Source: an uncultured Alphaproteobacteria bacterium (GTDB lineage: Bacteria > Pseudomonadota > Alphaproteobacteria > Bin95). Taken from it: a DNA stretch of 46,623 nt. The stretch lies in NCBI GenBank assembly GCA_937891825.1, contig CALAHN010000111.1, positions 1 through 46,623 of the forward strand, read 5' to 3'. Every line of letters begins with the position of its first letter. Positions within the stretch are counted from its first letter, which is position 1. Below the pieces are notes generated by a model that was given only the letters and a program-made list of their open reading frames with translations, did not search any database and had not been told where the DNA came from. Made by a program: the position numbers and the translations under genes. Shown piece by piece: positions 34,323 to 46,436 of the stretch.

Positions 34323-34511
34323 GATAAGCCGGCCGGCGCGGGTGATCTGCAGGATGTAGTCTTCCTCGTTATGCTGGATGACGAGGCGCTTGCCCCCGTG
34401 CATCAGGGCGTTTGTCGTCGTCCGGGGGGTCTGGTCCTGGGAAGCGGCGGGCTGGCTTTGGGCCGGGCGCGCCTGCTTTGATGACGGGGAAATTCTCGGC
34501 TCCTTGGGCAT
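34311..34511 (-). CDS. hemP: HemP family small haem-utilisation protein
   Basis: 66 aa. The C-terminal HemP motif is clear: RLVIQHNEEDYILQITRAG ending RLILTK (about 42-66), preceded by a Gln/Ser/Pro-rich disordered N-terminus. HemP (COG4256) is needed for haem uptake in several proteobacteria, and in some it acts as a regulator of the receptor gene. The start ATG overlaps the stop of hmuV (TAATG, 34509-34513), so it is the last gene of the operon. In most genomes I know hemP comes first, near the receptor. Its stop overlaps the convergent PiT gene. Confidence 0.9.
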   Translation of the reverse strand: MPKEPRISPSSKQARPAQSQPAASQDQTPRTTTNALMHGGKRLVIQHNEEDYILQITRAGRLILTK

Positions 34512-35320
34512 TATCGTGTCACGATCTCGGCGGCTTCGATGGCCTCGGGCAGGACCACGGGCGCGCCCGATTGCGGGTCCGGGAAGACCGTCAGGCCCGG
34601 TCCATAGACCTGACGGATCGTCTGTTCGGTAAAGATCGACGCTGGCGGACCGGCAGCGACGAGGGCGCCGTCCTGCAGCACCAGGGCTTCGTCCGCGAAG
34701 CGCGCCGTCAGGTTCAGGTCATGCAGAACAGTGAGCACGCCGACTCCGCCCGCCGCGATCTGCCGCGCGAACCCAAGCGTCGAGCGTTGATGCCTGAGGT
34801 CGAGGCTCGACGTCGGCTCGTCAAGCAGGAGATACCTGGGCACGCCCGCGTGCAGCGGCAGGATCTGCGCCAGCGCGCGGGCCAGAAACACCCGCTGCCG
34901 TTCCCCGCCCGACAGTTGATTGGACGGCCGGTCCGCCAGGTCGAGCACGCCAGCTTCCGCCATCGCCTGCTCGACATATCCGGCGGCCGCCGCCTTGCTT
35001 TCATGGCCTTCATGGGGCGCCCGGCCCATGGCGACAATCTCGAACGCCCGAAAGGCGAAGACGCTCTGGTAATGCTGCTGCAGAATGCTCACCCGGCGGG
35101 CGATATCGGGCCGCGCCAGCGACGCGAGCGGCGCGCCGTCCAGGGCGACGCTGCCGGTTTCCAGGCGAACCCGCCCGGTCAGCGCCTGCAGCAGCGTCGA
35201 CTTGCCGGCCCCGTTCGGCCCGACGATCGCCGTGACCTTGCCGGGGACGACCTGGATGCTGGCCCGATCCAGGGTGCGACGGCCGCCTCGCCTGACGCTG
35301 ATGCTCGTGCCGACCAGCAT
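34511..35320 (-). CDS. hmuV: Haem ABC transporter ATP-binding protein
   Basis: 269 aa, the family length. Walker A GPNGAGKSTL (about 34-43), Q-loop, signature LSGGERQRVFLARALAQ (about 135-151) and Walker B YLLLDEPTSSLDL. HmuV energises the HmuU permease for haem import through the inner membrane. The stop overlaps hemP by 1 nt and the start lies 3 nt from the hmuU stop, so it is fully embedded in the operon. Confidence 0.95.
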   Translation of the reverse strand: MLVGTSISVRRGGRRTLDRASIQVVPGKVTAIVGPNGAGKSTLLQALTGRVRLETGSVALDGAPLASLARPDIARRVSILQQHYQSVFAFRAFEIVAMGRAPHEGHESKAAAAGYVEQAMAEAGVLDLADRPSNQLSGGERQRVFLARALAQILPLHAGVPRYLLLDEPTSSLDLRHQRSTLGFARQIAAGGVGVLTVLHDLNLTARFADEALVLQDGALVAAGPPASIFTEQTIRQVYGPGLTVFPDPQSGAPVVLPEAIEAAEIVTR

Positions 35321-35323
35321 CGC

Positions 35324-36439
35324 TCACCAGCCTCCCTGGCCGCGGCCGCGCACCAGCAGCCAAAGGAAGAATGGGCCGCCGATGGCGGCCGTCACGATGC
35401 CGATCGGCAATTCGGCAGGCGCGGCGACGGTGCGGGAGAGGATATCCGCCGCCAGCATCAACGCGCCGCCGAGCAGCAGCGAGGTCGGCAGCAGCGCCCG
35501 ATGCCCTGGGCCGATCATCATGCGGACAACATGGGGCGTCACCAGACCGACAAACCCGATGACCCCGGTTAGCGACACGGCGGCGCCGGTGGCAAGCGCG
35601 CAACAGACGATCAGCCAGCGCTTCAGCTTCTCCGGCTCGAACCCGAGATTGTGGGCGTCCGCCTCGCCGAGCGAGAGCGCGTCGAGGGCGGCGCCGAAGC
35701 GCAGGATGCCCAGCATGCCGGCCAGGATCAGCGCCGCGGCCGGCGCCAGGGCCTTCCAGTTGGCGCCCGACAGACTGCCCAGCATCCAGAAATTGATGTC
35801 CCGGATCTGCTGATCGTCGCCAAGGAAGATGAAGAGGCCGATGCCGGCCCCGCAGATCGCGGTAAGGGCGGCGCCCGCCAGCAACAGCGTCGCGATATTC
35901 GTGCCGCCATCGTGCTGGGCGATCACGTAGACGATGCCGATCGCCGCCAAACCGCCGCAAAACGCCGCGGTTGGCAGCAAACTGGCCTGCAAGTATGTCG
36001 GCAACAGCGCCGCCGCCGGGGCGCCCAGGACAATGACGGCGACCGCGCCAAGCGCCGCGCCCGACGAGACGCCGATCAATGTCGGGTCGGCGAGCGGATT
36101 GCGGAACAGGCCCTGCAGCGCAGCGCCGCTGAGCGCCAACGCGCCGCCAGCCAGCATGCCCAGGGCCGTGCGCGGCGCGCGGATCGCCGAGAGGATCAGA
36201 TCGTCCCGGGCGGTAAACTCGGCGAACGTCGGCAGTCCCAGCTTCGAGAGGCCGATCGAGAGCGAGACGGCGGGCGATATCCGGACGGCCCCGAAGCCGA
36301 GACCGGCCAGGACCATGACCGCCAGCACGATCGCTGAGGCCGCGACCGACCAGAGAACGGCTTTCCGCGCCTTCAGGAGCCGCGCCTCGATCGTGAAGGC
36401 GCGCGCATCGCGTCCGGAAGCTCCAGCCAGGGCGGTCAT
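35324..36439 (-). CDS. hmuU: Haem ABC transporter permease
   Basis: 371 aa of the FecCD family with about ten TM helices; the [34 protein letters not shown]-type region (starting near residue 98) is the coupling-helix signature. It forms a dimer with HmuV. An N-terminal extension of about 30 residues (to [14 protein letters not shown]) precedes the first TM helix. The start ATG overlaps the stop of hmuT (ATGA, 36436-36439), indicating translational coupling. Confidence 0.95.
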   Translation of the reverse strand: [371 protein letters not shown]

Positions 36440-37317
36440 TCCGGCTTGCCCGACGGACGCGCGGCCTCCGGATAGAACGCCGCCGTCAGATGTTCGATCC
36501 CGCTCGCCAGGCGGGCGCCGAAGCCCAGCAGCAGCGCGCCATCGAACGCCACGATCCGCCCAGTCCGGGCGGCCTGGGTCGCCGCGAACTGCGGTTGCGC
36601 CCGGATCTCCTCAACGCCGCCGAGCGCCGCCATGGTGCGCTCCGTGACGATGATGATTTCGGGGTCGGCCGCGAGCATGGCTTCCGGTTCGAACGGTTTG
36701 TAGCCGCTGAAGCCGGTCGCGATATTCCGGCCGCCGGCAAGCTGGATCATGGCGTCCGCGCTTGAGGTCTCGCCGCCCGCCATCAGCCCGCCACGGCCGA
36801 CGGAAAACAGGAAAAGCGCCCGGGGCTTCGCCTGGCCCTGGGGTACAGCCGCGAGCGCCGCGTCGATGCGCGCCGATATGCTGCTGGCGAACGCCGCGCC
36901 CGCTTCGACGCTGTCGGCCGCGGCGGCGACGGCGCGAATCTTCGCCAGCGCGCCTTCGACGCTCGGCGCATCGGGGATTTCCGTGAACCGCACCCCGGCC
37001 TGCCGCAGGATTGCGATCACCTCCTTCGGGCCGGAGTCCGCGACGGCGATGATGTGGTCCGGCGCGAGCGCCAGGATCGGTTCCGCCGAAAGCTGGCGCA
37101 TATAGCCGACATTCGGCAAAGCCAGCGCCGCCGCCGGGTAGCGGCTGGTCGTATCGACAGCGACGATCCGGTCGCCCGCGCCAATAGCGAAGAGGATCTC
37201 CGTTATATCGCCGCCGATCGAGATCACCCGCTTCGCCGGTTCAGCCAGGGCCATCATCGACCAAAGCGGCAATCCTAAGCAGTGAGCGACAATCAGCACA
37301 CGGGTGAACCGGCGCAT
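36436..37317 (-). CDS. hmuT: Periplasmic haem-binding protein
   Basis: 293 aa. The N-terminal signal sequence MRRFTRVLIVAHCLGLPLWSMMALA is followed by a TroA/BtuF-like two-lobe domain starting AKRVISIGGDITEILFAIGAGDRIVAVD. HmuT captures haem in the periplasm and passes it to HmuUV. I chose the ATG at 37317 because AAAGGA lies 8 nt upstream; the in-frame ATG at 37326 overlaps that ribosome-binding site. The gene starts about 115 bp after the receptor stop, and the gap is filled by repeat copy C, which carries a strong hairpin. Confidence 0.93.
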   Translation of the reverse strand: MRRFTRVLIVAHCLGLPLWSMMALAEPAKRVISIGGDITEILFAIGAGDRIVAVDTTSRYPAAALALPNVGYMRQLSAEPILALAPDHIIAVADSGPKEVIAILRQAGVRFTEIPDAPSVEGALAKIRAVAAAADSVEAGAAFASSISARIDAALAAVPQGQAKPRALFLFSVGRGGLMAGGETSSADAMIQLAGGRNIATGFSGYKPFEPEAMLAADPEIIIVTERTMAALGGVEEIRAQPQFAATQAARTGRIVAFDGALLLGFGARLASGIEHLTAAFYPEAARPSGKPE

Positions 37318-37335
37318 TGGCGTCATCCTTTCTCG

Positions 37336-37434
37336 GATCGACCCGCCCTTTGGCCCAACTGCCAAAAGCGGGTCGATCGTCATCATCTATGGTCAGGCAA
37401 GGTCGGCGCGCCCGCTTGGACGCGCTGTCCTCTA
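37336..37434 (+). repeat. Dispersed palindromic repeat, copy C, with strong hairpin
   Basis: The hairpin has a 10-bp perfect outer stem GATCGACCCG (37336-37345) / CGGGTCGATC (37369-37378) and an inner TTGGC/GCCAA. Then CCGCTTGGACGCG at 37412-37424, the same 13-mer as copy A, and TCCTCTAG at the end. The last bases form the stop codon of the receptor gene on the opposite strand. Copy C is the most diverged of the three. Confidence 0.65.
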
Positions 37435-39549
37435 GAAGTTCAGGCGATAAGACACCTGGGCCTTGAAGTTCCGCCCCGGTTCGTTGGCGCCGGTAAAGGT
37501 GCGGCTGTATTCTTCGTCGAAGGCGTTATCGACGCCGAAATCGAGGCGGAAGCCGCTCAGCAGGCCCTCGCGCGGCGCGTATGAGGCATAGAAGTCATGG
37601 GTGTTGTAGGCGCTGCGGACTTCAGCGGCTGAATCGGTATCGTCGAACTTCGCCGCGAAGATGCCGCGCCAGCCGACGAACCCGTCGATTTCAGGGATCT
37701 TGACGCCGAAGCTCGCCGTGAACTGATCCGGCGCGAGCGTGCCGATCGGATCGCCGGTGCTGGCGTCCTCGCCCGTGATCGACGAATAGCCAAGCGCCGC
37801 CTTGAACCGATGGCTTTCATAGCCGCCTTCCGCTTCGAAGCCTTCCAGCTCCGCCTTGGCGATGTTCCGGGACGTGGTCGTTCCGTCGCAATTGCCTGGA
37901 ATAAACGGATTGCAGTCGATGAACGGCGACGGCTGAACGACGTCGAGCGCGATGAAATCCTCGCCGTAGATATAGAAGTACGAACCCTTGGCCTGCAGTC
38001 GATCGCCCGACTGGATGACATTGTCGAACTGGAGGCCGCCGCCGAATTCGAAGGTCTCGGTCCGCTGCGGTTTCAAATCCGGGTTGGGCACGAAGCGGTT
38101 CGTGATGCCTGGGCCGATGGGGATCTGGAAATGCACGCCGGTCAGAAACAGCTCGTCGAAGGTCGGCGCGCGGAAGGCGTCGCCGTAGCTGGCGAACGTC
38201 ATGGCCCAGGGCAGCGGCTTGTAGGTGAGCGCGATCCTGGGCGAGACCGCGGTCTCCTTGGTTTTCGACCCGCCGCCCACGTCGCTTTCAATGCTGTAGT
38301 AGTCGAAGCGCGCGCCTGTAATCAGCAGCAGCTCGCCGGGGATCGGCCCCAGATGGTCGATGGTGAATTCCGCCTGGGCGAAAGCGCCGAAAGTATCGGC
38401 CTCCGCATTGGGCACGCCGTCGCGCACGACGCCGCCGGCTTCGCCCGTTTGCTCATCCCGGTAATATTCGAGGCCGTAGGTGATCAGCGACGCCAGATTG
38501 TCCGCCAGGGTCACGGCAGACCGGTTATCGACCCGGAAACCGATAGTCTCGACGTCGCGGGTCAGCAATTCGCCGGCAGGTCCGTTGCCGAGATTATCCA
38601 GCCGCAATTCATCCGCCTTGGCGAGATTGTAATAGGCGGTGATGTCCAGATTGAGCAGCTTGTCGTCGGGATTGTCGTAAGTGTAGCCAAGGCGGAAGGT
38701 CTGGGAAGAAATGTCCTTTTCAACAGCGTCCGCGCCGCCGAGGCCCTGGCCATTATTCGGCTCCTCGGCCTTGTTGAAGAAGGAGACATACGACGCTTCG
38801 ACGTAGTGATCCTCGCTGACCTCCGCCCCGGCCTTGAGCATGCCGGAAATGACATTGTCATCGGAGTTCGTCAGTTGCCCGCCGCCGCCAAGGTCGATCG
38901 CGCCGCTATCCCTGTAGGTGACATTGCCGATCAGGTCGATGCCGGCTTCCGATTGCGCATAGGCTGTGAGCGACCCGAACTCTTCCGAGTTCACATCCTG
39001 ATATCCGGCCGCGACCCGGGCGCCGTGGGTCTGGCCCGGTTCGAGGAAGTCTCCGGCGCGCGCCGTCTTGAATTCCATGACGCCGCCTGTGCCGCCGCTG
39101 CCATAGAGGGAAGATGCCGAACCGCGCAAAACCTCAATGCTCCGGAGCAATTCCGGGTCAATGAAGAAACGCCCATCATGGGCTGAACCGAAGTTTTGGC
39201 GGGCGCCGTCCAGCAGCACAACCACGTCCGCGCCGGAAAAGCCCCGAATGCTGGGGCTCTCGCCAGTGCGGCGCGGTCCGCCGGTGAACTCGACGCCCGG
39301 AACGAATTTCAGGACGTCATCCGGCGTCGAAGGCTGGACGCGCTGGATTTCGTCGCGATCGATCACGGTCACCATGCCAGGCGCATCGAAGGCCGGCAGC
39401 GGGTTGCGGGTAGTGGTCACCGTCATCTGATCCAGATAGATGGCGCGGCCCTCGTCCGCGCCGGCGGCTGCTTCCTGTGCGATAGCAGCATGGGTCGAGA
39501 GCATTGTGCTCGCGCCAAGCATCGTGGCCTTCAGTAACTTCCAGTTCAT
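37432..39549 (-). CDS. TonB-dependent outer-membrane haem receptor
   Basis: 705 aa. Signal peptide (MNWKLLKATMLGASTMLSTHAAIA, cut before QEAAAG), TonB box region (LDQMTVTTTRNP, about 39-50), plug domain (about 55-165: PGMVTVIDRDEIQRV, PSIRGFSGADVVVLLDG, LRGSASSLYGSGGTGG), then a 22-strand barrel ending in aromatic SYRLNF. The haem-receptor signatures FRAP and NPNL appear as DAFRAPTFDELFL and PNPDLKPQRTE. It is the first gene of the haem-import operon, transcribed leftward from the Fur-box region. Ribosome-binding site is weak. Confidence 0.95.
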   Translation of the reverse strand: MNWKLLKATMLGASTMLSTHAAIAQEAAAGADEGRAIYLDQMTVTTTRNPLPAFDAPGMVTVIDRDEIQRVQPSTPDDVLKFVPGVEFTGGPRRTGESPSIRGFSGADVVVLLDGARQNFGSAHDGRFFIDPELLRSIEVLRGSASSLYGSGGTGGVMEFKTARAGDFLEPGQTHGARVAAGYQDVNSEEFGSLTAYAQSEAGIDLIGNVTYRDSGAIDLGGGGQLTNSDDNVISGMLKAGAEVSEDHYVEASYVSFFNKAEEPNNGQGLGGADAVEKDISSQTFRLGYTYDNPDDKLLNLDITAYYNLAKADELRLDNLGNGPAGELLTRDVETIGFRVDNRSAVTLADNLASLITYGLEYYRDEQTGEAGGVVRDGVPNAEADTFGAFAQAEFTIDHLGPIPGELLLITGARFDYYSIESDVGGGSKTKETAVSPRIALTYKPLPWAMTFASYGDAFRAPTFDELFLTGVHFQIPIGPGITNRFVPNPDLKPQRTETFEFGGGLQFDNVIQSGDRLQAKGSYFYIYGEDFIALDVVQPSPFIDCNPFIPGNCDGTTTSRNIAKAELEGFEAEGGYESHRFKAALGYSSITGEDASTGDPIGTLAPDQFTASFGVKIPEIDGFVGWRGIFAAKFDDTDSAAEVRSAYNTHDFYASYAPREGLLSGFRLDFGVDNAFDEEYSRTFTGANEPGRNFKAQVSYRLNF

Positions 39550-39804: not shown

Positions 39805-40149
39805 ATGTTCATAGCCATGAACCGATTCAAGATTGTCAAAGGCCGGGAGGATGACTTCGAAACTGTCTGGCGCACGCGGGACAGCCGCCTTGCCGACGTT
39901 CCGGGTTTCGTCGAATTTCACCTGCTGCGCGGTCCGGAGGTCGAGACCCACACCCTGTTTGCATCCCACACCATCTGGAAGGATGAGGCGGCGTTCGTGG
40001 CCTGGACCAAGTCCGATGCCTTCAAGCAAGCCCACGCCGGCGCCGGCGAAACCCGCGGCATGTATATTGGCCATCCGGAGTTCGAAGGCTTCAAGGCCGT
40101 CATGCAGTCCTTGCCCGCCGACGCCTCGAGCCATGTTCTCGATGCCTGA
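39805..40149 (+). CDS. IsdG/HmoA-type haem-degrading monooxygenase
   Basis: 114 aa, ABM-fold. The three residues that define active IsdG-type enzymes are in place: Asn6, Trp67 and His77 (AWTKSDAF...HAGAG), at almost the same numbers as in Staphylococcus IsdG. These enzymes open haem with O2 and release iron, on a homodimeric ferredoxin-like barrel in the cytoplasm. Ribosome-binding site GGAGG at 39792-39796 lies 8 nt before the ATG. It has its own Fur-like operator and precedes exbB by 168 bp containing repeat copy B. Confidence 0.88.
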   Translation: MFIAMNRFKIVKGREDDFETVWRTRDSRLADVPGFVEFHLLRGPEVETHTLFASHTIWKDEAAFVAWTKSDAFKQAHAGAGETRGMYIGHPEFEGFKAVMQSLPADASSHVLDA

Positions 40150-40160
40150 TAGCGCTCGCC

Positions 40161-40297
40161 TAGAGCATGGCGCATCCAAGTGGACGCGCAGTCCATGCTC
40201 TATCTTATTGATAGCGATCAACTTATCCAATCTTAGGCGGTTCCGCCTAAGGTTGGTTTGATCTAAGCCCCCTTTTGGCGACCCCGCCAAAAGGGGG
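40161..40297 (-). repeat. Dispersed palindromic repeat, copy B, three stacked hairpins
   Basis: Three hairpins in 137 bp: AGAGCATGG / CCATGCTCT (40162-40170 / 40193-40201); CTTAGGCGG / CCGCCTAAG (40232-40251, with flanking CCAA/TTGG); and CCCCCTTTTGGCG / CGCCAAAAGGGGG (40268-40280 / 40285-40297, perfect 13 bp, loop ACCC). Read on the minus strand it follows copy A: TTTTGGCG hairpin, GGATAAGTTGATCGC, ATAGAGCATGGAC, CTTGGATGCG, CATGCTCTA. The middle hairpin is an insertion absent from copy A. Confidence 0.85.
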
Positions 40298-40317: not shown

Positions 40318-41034
40318 GTGGAACCCATCGCTTCTACCCCACCGCAGAGCGGCCTCGGTTTCGATGTCGCGGCGCTGGCGCATGTGCTGACGCTCGGCGG
40401 CCCCGTCGTGATGATCCTGGCGGCCCTGTCGGTCACGGGACTTGCAATCGCGCTTTTGAAGATCCTGAGCTTCCGCCGGGCGAGGGTCTGGCGGACGGCC
40501 GCGGTCGCGGCCTCCGTCAACGCCTTTCTGGCCGGCGACGCCGCGGCGGCGAGCAGGGGCCTCGCCGCCGCCGACAGCGCCCTTGCCCGGACCGTAGCGG
40601 CGGCCGTGACAGGCGCCGCCGAGAAGCCCCCGGAGATCGCCCGGGAAATCACCGAGATCACCGCCGCGGCCGAGATCGAAAAGCTGCGCGGCGGTCTCCG
40701 GCCGCTGGAATTCATTGCGGCTGTCAGCCCGTTGCTGGGCCTCTTCGGCACCGTGCTCGGCATGATCGCCGCGTTTCAGGCGCTGGAAGCCGCTGGCGAC
40801 CGGGTCGACCCTGCCATATTGGCCGGCGGCATCTGGGAGGCGCTGTTTACCACGGCCGCTGGCCTCGCCGTCGCCATCCCGGCCCTGGCGTTCTCGAACT
40901 GGTTCGAACGGACGCTCGATGCATTGGCGCATCGGATGGAGCATTATACCGGCTTGGTGCTGACCTCCGGCGCGCGCGCCGGGACAGGCGCCGAGACGCC
41001 CGCAATGCGGCATTCCGCCATGGCGGCGGAGTAG
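40318..41034 (+). CDS. exbB: ExbB/TolQ proton-channel subunit
   Basis: 238 aa, three TM helices: about 22-44 (LGGPVVMILAALSVTGLAIALL), about 130-155 (AAVSPLLGLFGTVLGMIAAF) and about 170-195 (EALFTTAAGLAVAIPALAF). ExbB pentamers with an ExbD dimer inside carry the proton flux that energises TonB. The conserved LGLFGTVLGMI and ALFTTAAGL segments line the channel. The start is GTG at 40318 giving MEPIASTPPQS. The three following genes are spaced by 8, 2 and 3 nt, so exbB-exbD-exbD-tonB is one transcript. Confidence 0.93.
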   Translation: MEPIASTPPQSGLGFDVAALAHVLTLGGPVVMILAALSVTGLAIALLKILSFRRARVWRTAAVAASVNAFLAGDAAAASRGLAAADSALARTVAAAVTGAAEKPPEIAREITEITAAAEIEKLRGGLRPLEFIAAVSPLLGLFGTVLGMIAAFQALEAAGDRVDPAILAGGIWEALFTTAAGLAVAIPALAFSNWFERTLDALAHRMEHYTGLVLTSGARAGTGAETPAMRHSAMAAE

Positions 41035-41042
41035 TCAGCGCC

Positions 41043-41414
41043 ATGGCGCCCTCCATCCGCCGCCAACGCAACGCGACCCGGATCGGCATCACGCCATTGG
41101 TGGATGTCGTCTTCATCCTCATGATCTTTTTCATGCTGGCGTCCCGCTTCACGCACGAAGGCCAGATTGACCTCTCCGTCGCCGATGGCCTGAGCGGCAG
41201 CGCCGGCGAAACCCGGCTCCTCCTCGCTGCCCCCGCAACCTTGTCGCTGGACGGCGAGAGCGTGACGACGGCGATGCTCGCCGCGCGCCTCCGCCTGCAG
41301 CCGTCGCTCCCGCTGGCAGTGAAGCCCGTTGAGGGCGCGACCATCCAGCGCGTCATCACCCTGGTCGATCTCGCCCGGGCGGCCGGCGTGACGACCGTCG
41401 TGCTGACCGAATAG
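41043..41414 (+). CDS. exbD: ExbD biopolymer transport protein, first copy (Asp present)
   Basis: 123 aa: short cytoplasmic N-terminus (MAPSIRRQRNATRIG), one TM helix (about 16-38, ITPLVDVVFILMIFFMLAS) and a periplasmic domain. The proton-carrying Asp is Asp21 in PLVDVVF, as in canonical ExbD. It would pair with ExbB and with the second ExbD encoded 2 nt downstream. Confidence 0.93.
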   Translation: MAPSIRRQRNATRIGITPLVDVVFILMIFFMLASRFTHEGQIDLSVADGLSGSAGETRLLLAAPATLSLDGESVTTAMLAARLRLQPSLPLAVKPVEGATIQRVITLVDLARAAGVTTVVLTE

Positions 41415-41416
41415 CC

Positions 41417-41833
41417 ATGACCGCCGCACGACTACGCCGCGGCAAGGCAGGGCGCGGCGCCCAGATCAACGACGACGGCATCCTGCCGCTGATCAATATC
41501 GTGTTTCTCTTGCTGATCTTCTTCCTGCTGGCGGCCCATATCGCGCCGCCGGAGCCGGCGGACATCACGCCGCCGATATCCGCCGCCACGCCGGATGCGC
41601 CCGCGCGGCCGGCGATCCTGCATATCGCGGCGGACGGCGGTGTTTCCCATAACGGCGTCCCTGTACAGGATTTGATGGCGACCGTGACATCGATCGCGAG
41701 CAGCGCGCCGGACGCGCCCGTCACCATCCGCGCGGACCAGGGCGCGCCGGCCGCGAGCGTCCTCAGGGCGGCCCGCGCCCTCCGGATGGCGCGGGTCGCC
41801 GAGAGCCAGCTTGTCGTGATCCTGGGGCAATAG
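41417..41833 (+). CDS. ExbD-like protein, second copy (Asp replaced by Asn)
   Basis: 138 aa with the same plan: N-terminal basic segment, TM helix (about 23-45, LPLINIVFLLLIFFLLAAHIA) and periplasmic domain. The position of the essential Asp reads Asn27 (codon AAT at 41495-41497), in PLINIVF aligned with PLVDVVF of copy one. Asn cannot carry a proton. It could form an ExbD heterodimer with one protonatable site, or act as a structural partner. It lies 2 nt after the first copy and 3 nt before tonB. Confidence 0.9.
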   Translation: MTAARLRRGKAGRGAQINDDGILPLINIVFLLLIFFLLAAHIAPPEPADITPPISAATPDAPARPAILHIAADGGVSHNGVPVQDLMATVTSIASSAPDAPVTIRADQGAPAASVLRAARALRMARVAESQLVVILGQ

Positions 41834-41836
41834 GCC

Positions 41837-43045
41837 ATGGACAGAACGCTTGTCGAGCGTATCGGCGGAATCTCCCTCGCCATCGGACTGCATGCCGCGG
41901 TCTTCATCTATGTCGCCCCGAACCCGGCGGGCCAGGCATCGGCAAGCCAGGGCCAGTCCGGCAGCTTGGTCATGCTGCCGGGCGATCACACGGCGATGGC
42001 GGCAGCCGCGCCGGCCGCCGCCGAAGCGCAGCCGAGCACGGCGACGCTATCGCCAGCCCTCACCATCCCTCGGCAAAGCGCGCTGCCCGCCCAGGCCACA
42101 CCTTCAGAATCGATCCCGGCGCCGACCGCAATCCCAGTGACGGCCGCGCGCCTGGCCCCCGCCAAAGACCCTGCGACAGCCCAGCCTCCCGCCGCCAGGC
42201 AGGTCGAAAGCCTGACGCCTGCCGAAGCGAAGCCGGCAGAAGCAAAGCCGAGCGCGGCCAGGTTATCGCCAGCCGCTACGATCCCCCAGCGCAGCGCTTC
42301 CGCCGTTCAAGCCCAGCCCACGGAACCAACCGCGATTCCGGCGACCGCGCCCCCGCCGCCGCCCCCAGTCGCCGCCCCGGCGCCGGCAAAGATCGCGACC
42401 GCCCAACCCGTCACGACCGCGGCGGCAAAACCGCCCGAGGCGCCGACAGAGCTGCGCTCGGCCGCCGCCAATCCGTCGGACGCCGTCCTGGCGGCCGCGC
42501 CGCCGCCGCTGCCCCCACACAGACCGCCCGAAACCGCCGTCGATCAGAACCACGCGTCGCCGCCGGCGGTCGCGAAACCCAAGCCTGCAGCCTTGGAACG
42601 TCCACAACATACCCCTGGCGCCCCAGCAACAGATGCAGCCAGTTCGGCGAGCGCTGGCCTGGCGAACGCTCCAGCGAACGCGGACGCCGCAACAAGCGCG
42701 TCCGCCGCCGCCCGGCCCCAGGTCGCGGCGCTCCCCGGCGCCGCCGCGGAGAGCAATGCCCGCGATGCCTACGCACAGAAAGTTCGCGCCATCCTGGAAC
42801 AGGAAAAGCGCTACCCCCGCCGCGCCAAGGCCCGCAGCCAGCAGGGCATTGTTCTGGTGGCGTTCAACGTCAACCGTCACGGCGTGATTTCAGGCGCCCG
42901 AATTACCCGCGACTCCGGCGTGCGCGCCCTCGACCGGCAAACCCTCGCCATGCTGGAACGCGCCAGACTCCCGCCCTTGCCAGGGACGATCCGGGCGGAC
43001 CAGTTGTCCTTCGTCATGCCGGTGACATTCTCGCTGCGGAATTAG
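41837..43045 (+). CDS. tonB: TonB energy transducer with long Ala/Pro linker
   Basis: 402 aa. N-terminal TM helix with the functional His (ISLAIGLHAAVFIYVA, His19). Then about 270 residues of Ala/Pro/Thr-rich periplasmic linker, and the TonB C-terminal domain from about 310 (YAQKVRAILEQEKRYPRRAKARSQQGIVLVAF... to RADQLSFVMPVTFSLRN). The linker contains a diverged internal duplication: LSPALTIPRQSALPAQ...PTAIPVTAA near residue 70 and LSPAATIPQRSASAVQ...PTAIPATAP near residue 143. It must couple ExbB/ExbD to the haem receptor TonB box. Convergent with the next gene. Confidence 0.92.
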   Translation: MDRTLVERIGGISLAIGLHAAVFIYVAPNPAGQASASQGQSGSLVMLPGDHTAMAAAAPAAAEAQPSTATLSPALTIPRQSALPAQATPSESIPAPTAIPVTAARLAPAKDPATAQPPAARQVESLTPAEAKPAEAKPSAARLSPAATIPQRSASAVQAQPTEPTAIPATAPPPPPPVAAPAPAKIATAQPVTTAAAKPPEAPTELRSAAANPSDAVLAAAPPPLPPHRPPETAVDQNHASPPAVAKPKPAALERPQHTPGAPATDAASSASAGLANAPANADAATSASAAARPQVAALPGAAAESNARDAYAQKVRAILEQEKRYPRRAKARSQQGIVLVAFNVNRHGVISGARITRDSGVRALDRQTLAMLERARLPPLPGTIRADQLSFVMPVTFSLRN

Positions 43046-43074: not shown

Positions 43075-43401
43075 TCAGGCTCGCCGGGCGTAAAGGATGG
43101 CGTCGTCGCCATTCCAGAAGGAAAGCTCGATCTCAAGCGCGCCGTCGTCCATGAGTTCGGCCGGCCCCGTGCCCCGCACGTCGTCGCCTTCGTCGAAGCC
43201 TTCGAAATGGAAGAAAACGATAATGCGGCCGTATTCAAGGCCCATGCCGGCTTCAATGGCGCCGAAAGCAAAGCCGCCGTGGCCATTCACCTCGAAGCAG
43301 ATCTTCGCCGGAGCGACAAGGTCCAGGAAATCGCGATCCCACATATCGCTCTTCGTGATGCGCCAATGCCCGAGCAACTGGCAATCCGCCGGCCCGCTCA
43401 T
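43075..43401 (-). CDS. Hypothetical protein, about 108 aa
   Basis: Beginning MSGPADCQLLGHWRITKSDMWDRDFLDLV, this is a beta-rich small domain (WRI...MWDRDFLDLVAPAKICFE, GGFAFGAIEAGMGLEYG, IIVFFHFEGFDEGDD). I recognise the general pattern from unannotated proteobacterial proteins but cannot name a function. The start at 43401 is where this domain begins; an upstream in-frame GTG at 43503 would add 34 residues without family character. No strong ribosome-binding site. Convergent with tonB. Confidence 0.7.
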   Translation of the reverse strand: MSGPADCQLLGHWRITKSDMWDRDFLDLVAPAKICFEVNGHGGFAFGAIEAGMGLEYGRIIVFFHFEGFDEGDDVRGTGPAELMDDGALEIELSFWNGDDAILYARRA

Positions 43402-43764
43402 GACGCCGCAGCCAGCCGGTCTGGCAGAAAAACAAGCGCGTCGGCCGCCCCAACTCCGGACGACGTGCAGACGAACGGTTTGCGCCCGACCATCATTGTT
43501 CACCCCAAATAGCGCTCATTGCAGACCGCCGGTCGATCCCGGCGGGCGACGGGCATGAAGCCATGACCATCGGCATCGAACAGGTCCGCGCACGCCGCGA
43601 TCTCTGGCTCGACCGGATGCCGATCAAGCCGCTCCGCGAGCGGATATTCGATCAATCGCGAAAGCAGACCGGATATCAGATGAGCGCCCGTCATCCGACG
43701 CTTCACGCGTACGCTGCGTTCGGCAAAAAGCCAGGACGTACAGGGCCTCACGCGGCCGCCCATC
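43402..43764. other. Region of uncertain coding between the hypothetical and CDF genes
   Basis: About 363 bp. ORFs are open on both strands (97 codons on minus, 43500-43793; 86 codons on plus, 43563-43823), but neither shows a ribosome-binding site, and third-position G/C is lower than in neighbouring genes in both. The minus ORF ends in GTGA that overlaps a possible GTG start of the 43075 gene. It is possibly a decayed gene; I see no repeat or RNA. Confidence 0.4.
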
Positions 43765-44400
43765 CTATTCGGCGGGGACGGTTGCGACGGCATGCCGACG
43801 CTCCTGGAGGGCCTGGGCGATGATCTGTGACGACGACCACAGGAAAAGGCCCGCCATCAACCCGGCGACCGCCAGATCGGGCCATGCCGTGCCCGTCATG
43901 AAGACGCCGCCCGCCGCCAGCATGACGGCGACATTGCCGATCGCGTCATTCCGACTGCAGAGCCAGACCGACCGCACATTCGCATCGCCGTCCTTGTAGC
44001 GCATGAGCACGGCCACGCTGGCCAGATTGGCGGCAAGCGCCAGCAGGCCGACGGCGCCCATCACCGGCGCCGATGGGACGCCGAGGACGAGCACCTGATA
44101 AAGCGTCGACCCGAAGACCCAGAGTCCCATAACGGCCAGGCTGAGGCCCTTGAGCAACGCCGCCGTCGCCCGGACGCGCAAAGACATCCCCAGGACAAAC
44201 AAGCTGATGCCATAGGTCAGCGCATCGCCGAGGAAATCCAGCGCATCCGCCTTCAGCGCCTGTGAACCGGCAAGCGACCCGGCTGCCATCTCAACGATGA
44301 ACATGCCGGCATTGATGGCGATGACGACCCAGAGCGCCCGCCGGAACCCGTCTGAGGCTCCGTCGAACTTGGGTTCATGATGGCGGCACCCGACCGACAT
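43765..44400 (-). CDS. CDF-family cation efflux protein, short form
   Basis: 211 aa, six TM helices, without the C-terminal cytoplasmic domain of classical CDF proteins. CDF proteins export Zn2+, Co2+, Cd2+ or Fe2+ with proton exchange. Metal-site helices read KADALDFLGDAL (about 49-60, D-x3-D in place of H-x3-D) and WLCSRNDAIGN (C-x3-D in place of H-x3-D), a variant I associate with the short CDF clade. Start at 44400 with AGGAGA upstream. Transcribed from the MerR-type promoter at 44440-44470. Confidence 0.9.
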   Translation of the reverse strand: MSVGCRHHEPKFDGASDGFRRALWVVIAINAGMFIVEMAAGSLAGSQALKADALDFLGDALTYGISLFVLGMSLRVRATAALLKGLSLAVMGLWVFGSTLYQVLVLGVPSAPVMGAVGLLALAANLASVAVLMRYKDGDANVRSVWLCSRNDAIGNVAVMLAAGGVFMTGTAWPDLAVAGLMAGLFLWSSSQIIAQALQERRHAVATVPAE

Positions 44401-44439
44401 GGCGTTCTCCTGCATTCCTCTGCACATTCTCGTTTGCTA

Positions 44440-44470
44440 AAGATACAAGCTACAGTAACTGTTGGTTCAA
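44440..44470 (-). promoter_or_regulatory. MerR-type promoter of the CDF gene, 19-bp spacer
   Basis: On the minus strand: -35 TTGAAC (44465-44470), a 19-bp spacer, -10 TATCTT (44440-44445). The spacer carries the near-palindrome ACAGTTACTGT, where a MerR dimer would sit. A 19-bp spacer is the hallmark of MerR-activated promoters, which are twisted into alignment when metal binds. It lies between the divergent CDF and regulator genes. Confidence 0.85.
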
Positions 44471-44483
44471 GGAGAAAATTGCC

Positions 44484-44969
44484 ATGGCGAACGCGCTGAC
44501 GATCGGCCGCGTGGCTGATGCTGCGGGCTGCAAGGCCCAAACGATCCGGTATTACGAACAGATCGGCCTCCTGCCCGCGCCGCCGCGCTCCGAGGGCAAC
44601 CAAAGGCTTTACGACGACGCGGCGATCCAGCGGCTCAGCTTCATACGTCATGCGCGGCAGCTCGGTTTCCCGCTCCAGGCCATTCGGGACCTAATCAGCC
44701 TGTCGGACCGCCCCGAGCAGACCTGCGAGGCCGCAGACGCGATCGCAAGACAACAGTTGGCGGATGTGGACCGGCGCATCCGCCGTCTGCAAGCGCTCCG
44801 CCATGAACTTGAACGCATGATCGAACAGTGCAAGGGCGGGCGCATCGCTGACTGCCTGGTTATCGAGACGCTTGGCGACCACGGCCTTTGCGACGTGGAC
44901 GATCACGGCGACGCGGAGAAGACGAACAGAAACGCACAGAGACCGCCGAAATCACTAGGACGCTGGTAG
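44484..44969 (+). CDS. MerR-family metal regulator (CadR/PbrR/ZntR-like)
   Basis: 161 aa. N-terminal winged HTH (TIGRVADAAGCKAQTIRYYEQIGLL, 6-30), a coiled-coil dimerisation helix, and metal-loop cysteines Cys81, Cys116, Cys124 (QCKGGRIADC) and Cys136. The Cys pattern fits Cd/Pb/Zn-type sensors. It should activate the divergent CDF gene through the promoter at 44440-44470. Ribosome-binding site AAGGAGA is 8 nt before the ATG. The C-terminus extends past the last Cys with a His/Asp-rich tail (DHGLCDVDDHGD), possibly an extra metal site. Confidence 0.9.
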   Translation: MANALTIGRVADAAGCKAQTIRYYEQIGLLPAPPRSEGNQRLYDDAAIQRLSFIRHARQLGFPLQAIRDLISLSDRPEQTCEAADAIARQQLADVDRRIRRLQALRHELERMIEQCKGGRIADCLVIETLGDHGLCDVDDHGDAEKTNRNAQRPPKSLGRW

Positions 44970-45053
44970 AGGACATCGTGCTGACGCCGGCGGACGGCGA
45001 AATGGAGATCGACGTGCGCGGCGATCTCGCTGGAATCCTTACGCTTTCCGTCC

Positions 45054-45144
<91 letters not shown>

Positions 45145-45238
45145 TCACGCCAACCTATCAGCACCAACAAACCTCAACTTTTTTCCATATATTTTTCAGT
45201 GTTTTGATCAATTAACTTTGTTGAGGGGTGTTGGCAAA

Positions 45239-45280
45239 TAGGGACAAAGCCTGCTACGAACTGTCCCTAAATTGTCCCTA
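45239..45280. repeat. TGTCCCTA repeats before the integrase
   Basis: TGTCCCTA occurs at 45262-45269 and 45273-45280, and inverted (TAGGGACA) at 45239-45246, between the attachment site and the integrase start. Likely integrase arm-binding sites or an operator. Confidence 0.6.
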
Positions 45281-45302
45281 TGCCCTGCCCCGTGAGGCTC
45301 TC

Positions 45303-46436
45303 ATGGCTACGATTGAAAAGCGCAAGCAGACTGCGACGGGCGAGACCTATTACCGGGTCCGCGTGCGCATCCAGGGGCTGCCGGAGAAGCAGAAGACCTT
45401 CAAGCGCATGACCGACGCCAAACTGTGGGCGCAGCAGACCGAAGCGGCCATCCGACGCGGCGAGGTGACAAACGTCGTCACCAAGACGAAGGGCAAGACC
45501 CTTTCCGACGTTATTACCCGATACCGGCAAGAGGTCCTACCGCACAAGGCAAAAAGCTCTCAGCGGGCGGCTGAGAGTTATCTGAAGCATTGGGACGCGG
45601 TGCTTGGCAAATACGGCTTGTCCTATCTGACACCGGACCTGATTTCGGCTGAGGTGGCGAAGCTCGCGCAGGCAGGCGACACGCGGCGCAAGCTGAAGGC
45701 CGGGGAAAGCCCGCCAAAGCCCAAGAGCCGCAAGACGCAGAAGCTCTACCGCGACATGCTTGCCGTGCTGCTGAAGAACGCCAAGGCGTGGGGCTGGACG
45801 CCGCAGAACCTAATGGACGGGGTAAACCCAATCACGAATATCCGCGATGAGCGCACGCGATTTCTGAGCGACGAGGAACGCGCCAGGCTGCTCGATGCCT
45901 GCAAGGCAAGCGACAACGATTATCTGTTTACCGTCGTCGTCTTCGCGCTCTCGACCGGCGCGCGCAAAAGCGAGATTCTGGGCCTGACGCTGGCGGACGT
46001 GGACCTTGAGCGCGGCGCGGCGGTTTTCCGCAACACCAAGAACGGCGACTCGCGCGCCGCCCCGCCGGCCCGTCACTTGCGCGAGCTGCTGGCGGATCAG
46101 ATCGGCAAGGCCGAAGCCCTGTACGCCGCCCTGCCCAATCCTCCCCGAACGCGCTTTCTGTTTCCGCGCCGTGACGGGTTGGCCCCGATGGATATCCGCA
46201 AGGCATGGGAGAATGCGCGGGACGCGGCACAGTTGGAAGACTTCCGCTTTCATGATCTGCGGCATTCAACGGCGAGCTACCTTGCCATGAAGGGCGCGAG
46301 CCTGGTGGAGATTGCGGAGGTTCTGGGCCACCGCACGCTTCAGATGGTGCGCCGGTATGCGCACCTGTCGGAAAGCCACGTCAAGGGGCTGGTGGAGAGC
46401 CTTGGCGAGGATATTTTCGCTGATGAGACGCAGTAA
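45303..46436 (+). CDS. int: Tyrosine-type site-specific integrase
   Basis: 377 aa. N-terminal arm-binding domain (TGETYYRVRVRIQGLPEKQKTFKRM), a SAM-like core-binding domain, and the catalytic domain with Arg221 (STGARKSEI), His317 and Arg320 (FHDLRHS), His343 (LGHRT) and Tyr352 (RRYAHL). All catalytic residues except the variable Lys are visible, so it should be active. Located beside the tRNA-fMet attachment core, in the orientation expected for an element-borne integrase. Start at ATG 45303; the in-frame upstream codons from 45228 run through the TGTCCCTA repeats. Confidence 0.93.
   Translation: MATIEKRKQTATGETYYRVRVRIQGLPEKQKTFKRMTDAKLWAQQTEAAIRRGEVTNVVTKTKGKTLSDVITRYRQEVLPHKAKSSQRAAESYLKHWDAVLGKYGLSYLTPDLISAEVAKLAQAGDTRRKLKAGESPPKPKSRKTQKLYRDMLAVLLKNAKAWGWTPQNLMDGVNPITNIRDERTRFLSDEERARLLDACKASDNDYLFTVVVFALSTGARKSEILGLTLADVDLERGAAVFRNTKNGDSRAAPPARHLRELLADQIGKAEALYAALPNPPRTRFLFPRRDGLAPMDIRKAWENARDAAQLEDFRFHDLRHSTASYLAMKGASLVEIAEVLGHRTLQMVRRYAHLSESHVKGLVESLGEDIFADETQ

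Follow-up and report, generated by a model that had tools for sequence, protein, structure and literature searches.

Two intact exbD genes lie 2 bases apart in the window, the whole 46,623-nucleotide stretch of DNA that was analysed, with exbB upstream and tonB downstream. The features of this operon, followed by those of the neighbouring haem uptake locus, are listed below.

40318..41034, + strand: exbB, 238 aa with a GTG start (PF01618, E=9.5e-32; alignment to solved ExbB/TolQ)
41043..41414, + strand: exbD1, Asp-type, 123 aa with the motif TPLVDVVF (PF02472, 53.7 bits; in the Asp-type clade)
41103..41105, + strand: GAT codon of exbD1 Asp21, the proton-carrying position (Asp in 86/86 Asp-type copies)
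41346..41348, + strand: codon of exbD1 Gln102, near the dimer-contact loop (Asp-type-specific, Gln in 83/86; variable in Asn-type)
41417..41833, + strand: exbD2, Asn-type, 138 aa with the motif LPLINIVF (PF02472, 65.8 bits; modelled with an ExbD fold)
41495..41497, + strand: AAT codon of exbD2 Asn27, which replaces the proton-carrying Asp (Asn in 83/86 second copies)
41735..41737, + strand: codon of exbD2 Asp107, the canonical periplasmic Asp (kept by Asn-type, lost by Asp-type)
41837..43045, + strand: tonB, 402 aa (PF03544, E=1.1e-14)
39805..40149, + strand: HmuQ-type haem-degrading enzyme, upstream of exbB (NCBIfam NF053649, E=3.6e-48, above cut-off)
37432..39549, - strand: TonB-dependent haem/haemoglobin receptor (TIGR01785, E=1.1e-134, above cut-off)
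36436..37386, - strand: HmuT-like periplasmic binding protein of the uptake locus (PF01497, E=1.8e-36)
35324..36439, - strand: HmuU-like FecCD-type permease of the uptake locus (PF01032, E=9.8e-90)
34511..35320, - strand: probable HmuV-like ABC ATPase of the uptake locus (from position and sequence only)

Both ExbD proteins score above the PF02472 cut-off of 25.4 bits (65.8 for exbD2 and 53.7 for exbD1), and exbD2 departs from the family at its transmembrane Asp, where it carries Asn27 and all 36 canonical sequences compared carry Asp. The initial annotation had read the pair as tandem exbD genes with the helix motifs PLVDVVF and PLINIVF and an Asn at position 27 of the second protein, and its coordinates and residues proved exact. 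The NCBIfam ExbD equivalogs TIGR02803, TIGR02804 and NF008429 give exbD1 and exbD2 18-29 bits, set against cut-offs of 123-216 where listed, and do not separate the Asn-type class. In the structural model of exbD2 (mean pLDDT 80.9), the best matches are solved ExbD periplasmic domains; a modelled helix at residues 19-40 and the ExbD strand-helix order give it the usual single N-terminal transmembrane helix followed by a periplasmic domain.

The surroundings of the operon are those of haem uptake (Hmu), the receptor, HmuQ, the binding protein and the permease being adjacent in the window. Between the HmuQ gene and exbB, a strong hairpin of 13 pairs at 40227-40256, CCAATCTTAGGCGGTTCCGCCTAAGGTTGG, is followed by T-rich sequence and may be a terminator, an attenuator or a regulator site. 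Just downstream of tonB, a 142-aa ORF (43075-43503, - strand) matches nothing in Pfam at E<=1e-5. Further on, positions 43765-46436 carry genes for cation efflux, for a MerR regulator and for a phage-type integrase (the last at 45228-46436); tRNA genes were looked for in the window, with none found. Four genomes of the genus to which the window belongs were searched and gave no Asn-type match, which makes the locus accessory there, and this absence together with the integrase region hints at an acquired region.

The genome of the window (4.3 Mb, 99.97% complete) holds two ExbB/TolQ-type genes, two TonB-C genes and two TonB-dependent receptors. Since its only ExbD-family genes are this pair and a TolR-like gene on another contig, the pair appears to be the sole Ton motor there.

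A profile built from 11 second copies was run against genomes of the class (385) and of the phylum (398), two overlapping samples; about 100 loci were examined and each ExbD was classed by profile score. This yielded 86 pairs in 85 loci with 34 family labels, all in the order exbB-exbD(Asp)-exbD(Asn), with tonB next where it was found. At least 59 of the 385 class genomes carry an Asp/Asn pair (counted by hand), and four pairs come from a different class of that phylum. Asp is present in 86/86 first copies. Among the second copies, 83/86 carry Asn, two Asp (L116 and L155) and one Ser (L111). The initial annotation had voiced a belief, unconfirmed at the time, that similar Asn variants occur in related loci, and had proposed the alignment of operon ExbD proteins that now bears it out. 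It had also named an assembly error among the things that would undo its reading. That explanation can be dropped, and with it a pseudogene, since Asn is kept in 83/86 second copies although these share a mean identity of 30%. The Asn is encoded by AAC in 47 and AAT in 36; since both codons are in use, the third base has changed often, while the first-base change that restores Asp is rare, a one-base return to Asp having occurred only twice. Several genomes hold two Asp/Asn systems each, and at one locus two divergent Asp/Asn operons stand close together.

Tandem exbD genes are not always of the Asp/Asn kind, as three other pairs (L188, L189 and L190) are Asp/Asp, which indicates that tandem duplication by itself does not yield Asn. 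An apparent natural ExbD-ExbD fusion at L093 (3542-4423) was rejected: exbD1 reads through because a single base is gained or lost shortly before its end, probably by sequence error or frameshift, and in the expected frame it ends normally.

Because the search profile contains Asn, the search was repeated with the profile of the Asp-type partner, and 40 of 40 matches at E<=1.2e-27 adjoin an Asn-type gene. In a tree built without the Asp/Asn column, the Asn-type and Asp-type proteins each form one clade and the two are sisters (supports of 0.6-0.8, moderate), while TolR, E. coli ExbD and single ExbD proteins fall outside both. These two results counter circular recruitment by the Asn-type profile. 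The sister clades point to one old duplication, and the copies of L116, L155 and L111, being nested inside the Asn-type clade, to later changes. These three natural revertants retain further marks of the Asn-type, among them the periplasmic Asp. In close comparisons, 14 in all, the Asn-type gene has a dN/dS of 0.04-0.26 and the Asp-type gene, where computable, one of 0.04-0.24; judged from these ratios, purifying selection is similar on both, and the earlier statement that exbD2 is not decayed holds. Distances among the Asn-type proteins rise with those among their Asp-type partners (r=0.83, with a permuted maximum of 0.16), as is expected from joint inheritance, and this is not in itself proof of contact.

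The cargo of these motors varies among loci. An HmuQ like that of the window occurs in 4 of the 85, and a haem-specific trait for the whole group was rejected on that count and on the varied cargo. The link to haem in the initial annotation thus stands for the window, whereas relatives adjoin cobalamin-type or siderophore genes. A search of plasmid records found no matches with the window protein or with one relative; with a Rhodobacterales relative it returned 20 named records, and the named matches are all Rhodobacterales. On plasmids, the pair occurs with cobalamin-type genes, including adenosylcobinamide amidohydrolase, in Phaeobacter inhibens, with siderophore genes in Leisingera aquaemixtae and near a hemP gene in Pacificitalea manganoxidans. 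In these three and in Tritonibacter mobilis the motifs are PMIDVVF and PMINVVF or PMINIVF. Annotated records name both proteins biopolymer transporter ExbD, so that the natural Asn ExbD is hidden in present annotation; no report of one was found in the open-licence literature.

The residues that distinguish the two classes were examined by comparing 36 canonical ExbD/TolR sequences with the 86 Asp-type and 86 Asn-type proteins. The Thr four residues before the Asp is present in 34/36 canonical and 77/86 Asp-type sequences, and in 1/86 of the Asn-type. The loss is reciprocal at the periplasmic Asp (Asp107 of E. coli and of exbD2), which is kept in 33/36 canonical and 83/86 Asn-type sequences, and in 9/86 of the Asp-type. 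A Gln six residues past this position marks the Asp-type alone (83/86). In the modelled exbD2 structure, the class-specific residues fall between the strand at 102-106 and the helix at 112-124, or at the start of that helix. In the ExbD homodimer, the interface is centred on Tyr112 (PMC10771500). This position is Tyr or His in 29/36 canonical sequences, small in 75/86 Asn-type proteins (mostly Ala) and large in 74/86 Asp-type proteins (mostly Leu, Val, Met or Ile), the small and large residues occurring together in 63/86 pairs; in the window it is Ala112 of exbD2 and Ile101 of exbD1. Such a combination is expected where a symmetric contact has turned asymmetric, and it is regarded here as the strongest single argument for a heterodimer. 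The transmembrane helix of the Asn-type is as conserved as that of the Asp-type, with P, I, F, L and FF at 93-99%. At column 14 of the ExbD profile, seven positions ahead of the Asn, 61/86 Asn-type proteins carry Glu or Asp where Asp-type and canonical proteins are hydrophobic.

On the ExbB side, the equivalents of E. coli Thr148 and Thr181 are retained in the exbB of the window, as aligned to solved ExbB/TolQ, and in 83/83 partner ExbB proteins, the window's included. In the solved complexes these conserved threonines are next to the essential Asp; in TolQ they make up a polar ring around it (PMC12215075). As far as these residues indicate, the rest of the proton path is preserved. At the position of E. 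coli Glu176, 44/83 partners have Glu and 23 have Val; being poorly conserved, it was not used as evidence.

From these patterns it is likely that exbD1 and exbD2 form an obligate heterodimer, giving an ExbB5-ExbD(Asp)-ExbD(Asn) motor with one carboxylate; we infer the dimer, its placement in the pore and its stoichiometry alike. The two proteins would be halves of one unit inside a single ExbB pentamer coupled to TonB. The Asp half alone would bind a proton on the periplasmic side and release it to the cytoplasm, while the Asn half would be permanently neutral and mimic a protonated site, as D22N does in MotB (PMC9389320). Dimer contact and coupling to TonB would probably be the task of the Asn half, which retains the canonical periplasmic Asp107 loop. 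Such a motor would pass about 5 protons per turn, one per 72 degrees, as opposed to the one per 36 degrees and ten per turn of standard models (PMC9389320; PMC12215075). Possible gains for the cell include fewer protons per turn, a lower force, tighter gating or directional TonB coupling. The initial annotation had proposed both a heterodimer with one active site and a changed proton stoichiometry or force. Co-inheritance, reciprocal residue loss and the asymmetric small/large dimer hub give the former good, if indirect, support, and the latter would hold only with the heterodimer as the form that does the work. Several points count against the heterodimer: both copies carry Asp at L116 and L155, so the Asn is not strictly required; homomeric E. 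coli ExbD D25N shows no activity (PMC11658791); one form of the rotary model would have a permanently neutral partner lock the dimer; and the tree supports are moderate.

The inactivity of D25N would make an Asn-Asn homodimer a natural idle form, and the full ExbD fold and helix kept by both proteins would likewise suit two kinds of homodimer, in which Asp-Asp is the working motor, Asn-Asn idles as a brake, reserve or TonB holder, and their ratio sets the output. Such an arrangement is improbable given that the Asp-type lacks the canonical periplasmic Asp, that both proteins lack the symmetric Tyr112 hub, that the genes are constant 1:1 neighbours, never separated, and that each operon has a single exbB. 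Equally doubtful is a role for the Asn-type as an accessory outside the ExbB pore, a periplasmic aid to the docking of TonB or to binding of the wall, with the motor itself driven by an Asp-type homodimer. Its retention of the Asp107 loop, which the Asp-type has lost, would suit such a role, but its strongly conserved helix fits the pore better than it fits a free helix. The keeping of a polar uncharged Asn rather than another residue suggests that the side chain may matter, and the pair might then alter the coupling ion or the gating (for example Na+ or leak control) with the same number of ions per turn; this is very unlikely, as the threonine ring of ExbB is of the ordinary proton type and the sequence bears no sign of another ion. 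Least credible is the view that the Asn is a neutral change in a gene that is redundant or decaying. Asp does become Asn by one base and two relatives have Asp, yet the conservation of Asn across divergent copies in both codons, the low dN/dS and the constant presence of the partner contradict it for the group.

Compared with known systems, the heterodimeric motor proposed here would share with the ExbB5-ExbD2-TonB motor of E. coli, Pseudomonas and Serratia its gene family, the ExbB pore threonines, the ExbD helix and periplasmic fold, and the TonB partner. In those motors two identical ExbD proteins each carry Asp, whereas here the two differ, one has Asn and the dimer contact shows reciprocal changes. 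The laboratory mutants ExbD D25N and MotB D22N make the same Asp-to-Asn change at the same site, but they are homomeric and either inactive or a protonation mimic, while the present Asn is natural, old and always beside an Asp copy. In Xanthomonas campestris and Flavobacterium psychrophilum, tandem exbD1-exbD2 genes likewise sit in one tonB cluster, a likeness drawn by description alone, and exbD2 is dispensable for iron uptake (PMC3551730). The dispensability of the Xanthomonas exbD2 would count against a heterodimer to the extent that this protein belongs to the Asn-type. In Myxococcus, the AglR-AglQ-AglS gliding motor combines one MotA-type with two MotB-type proteins, as one ExbB is combined here with two ExbD proteins; AglQ and AglS might pair, and unlike the present pair both are described as having Asp (PMC9389320). 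Vibrio TtpB2/TtpD2 was discarded as a parallel, TtpD2 being described with TPR motifs and not as an ExbD.

In published 5:2 models the two aspartates are equivalent and exchange protonation states at each step of 36 degrees, and a review holds 10-fold rotational symmetry to be 'almost certain' to be universal in such motors (PMC9389320). On present evidence it is somewhat more probable than its opposite that a natural, old and widespread heterodimeric Ton motor turns on a single carboxylate, at about 5 protons per turn, and that two exchanging Asp residues and 10-fold symmetry are thus not universal in 5:2 motors. If so, the natural Asp/Asn pair breaks the 10-fold symmetry genetically. By our own reasoning, in the simple rail model of PMC9389320 a neutral partner would lock the dimer once the Asp is protonated, while in a variant where rotation needs both sites protonated an Asp-Asn motor could still turn. 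Since the one predicts a locked motor and the other a turning one, the pair separates the two. It would lend itself directly to testing whether a single carboxylate suffices, how many protons a turn costs and which rotation model applies. Each ExbD would be separately addressable, and the asymmetry that cryo-EM shows could be traced to identified chains. For the organism of the window, such a motor would have to work in a genome without an ordinary ExbD as backup.
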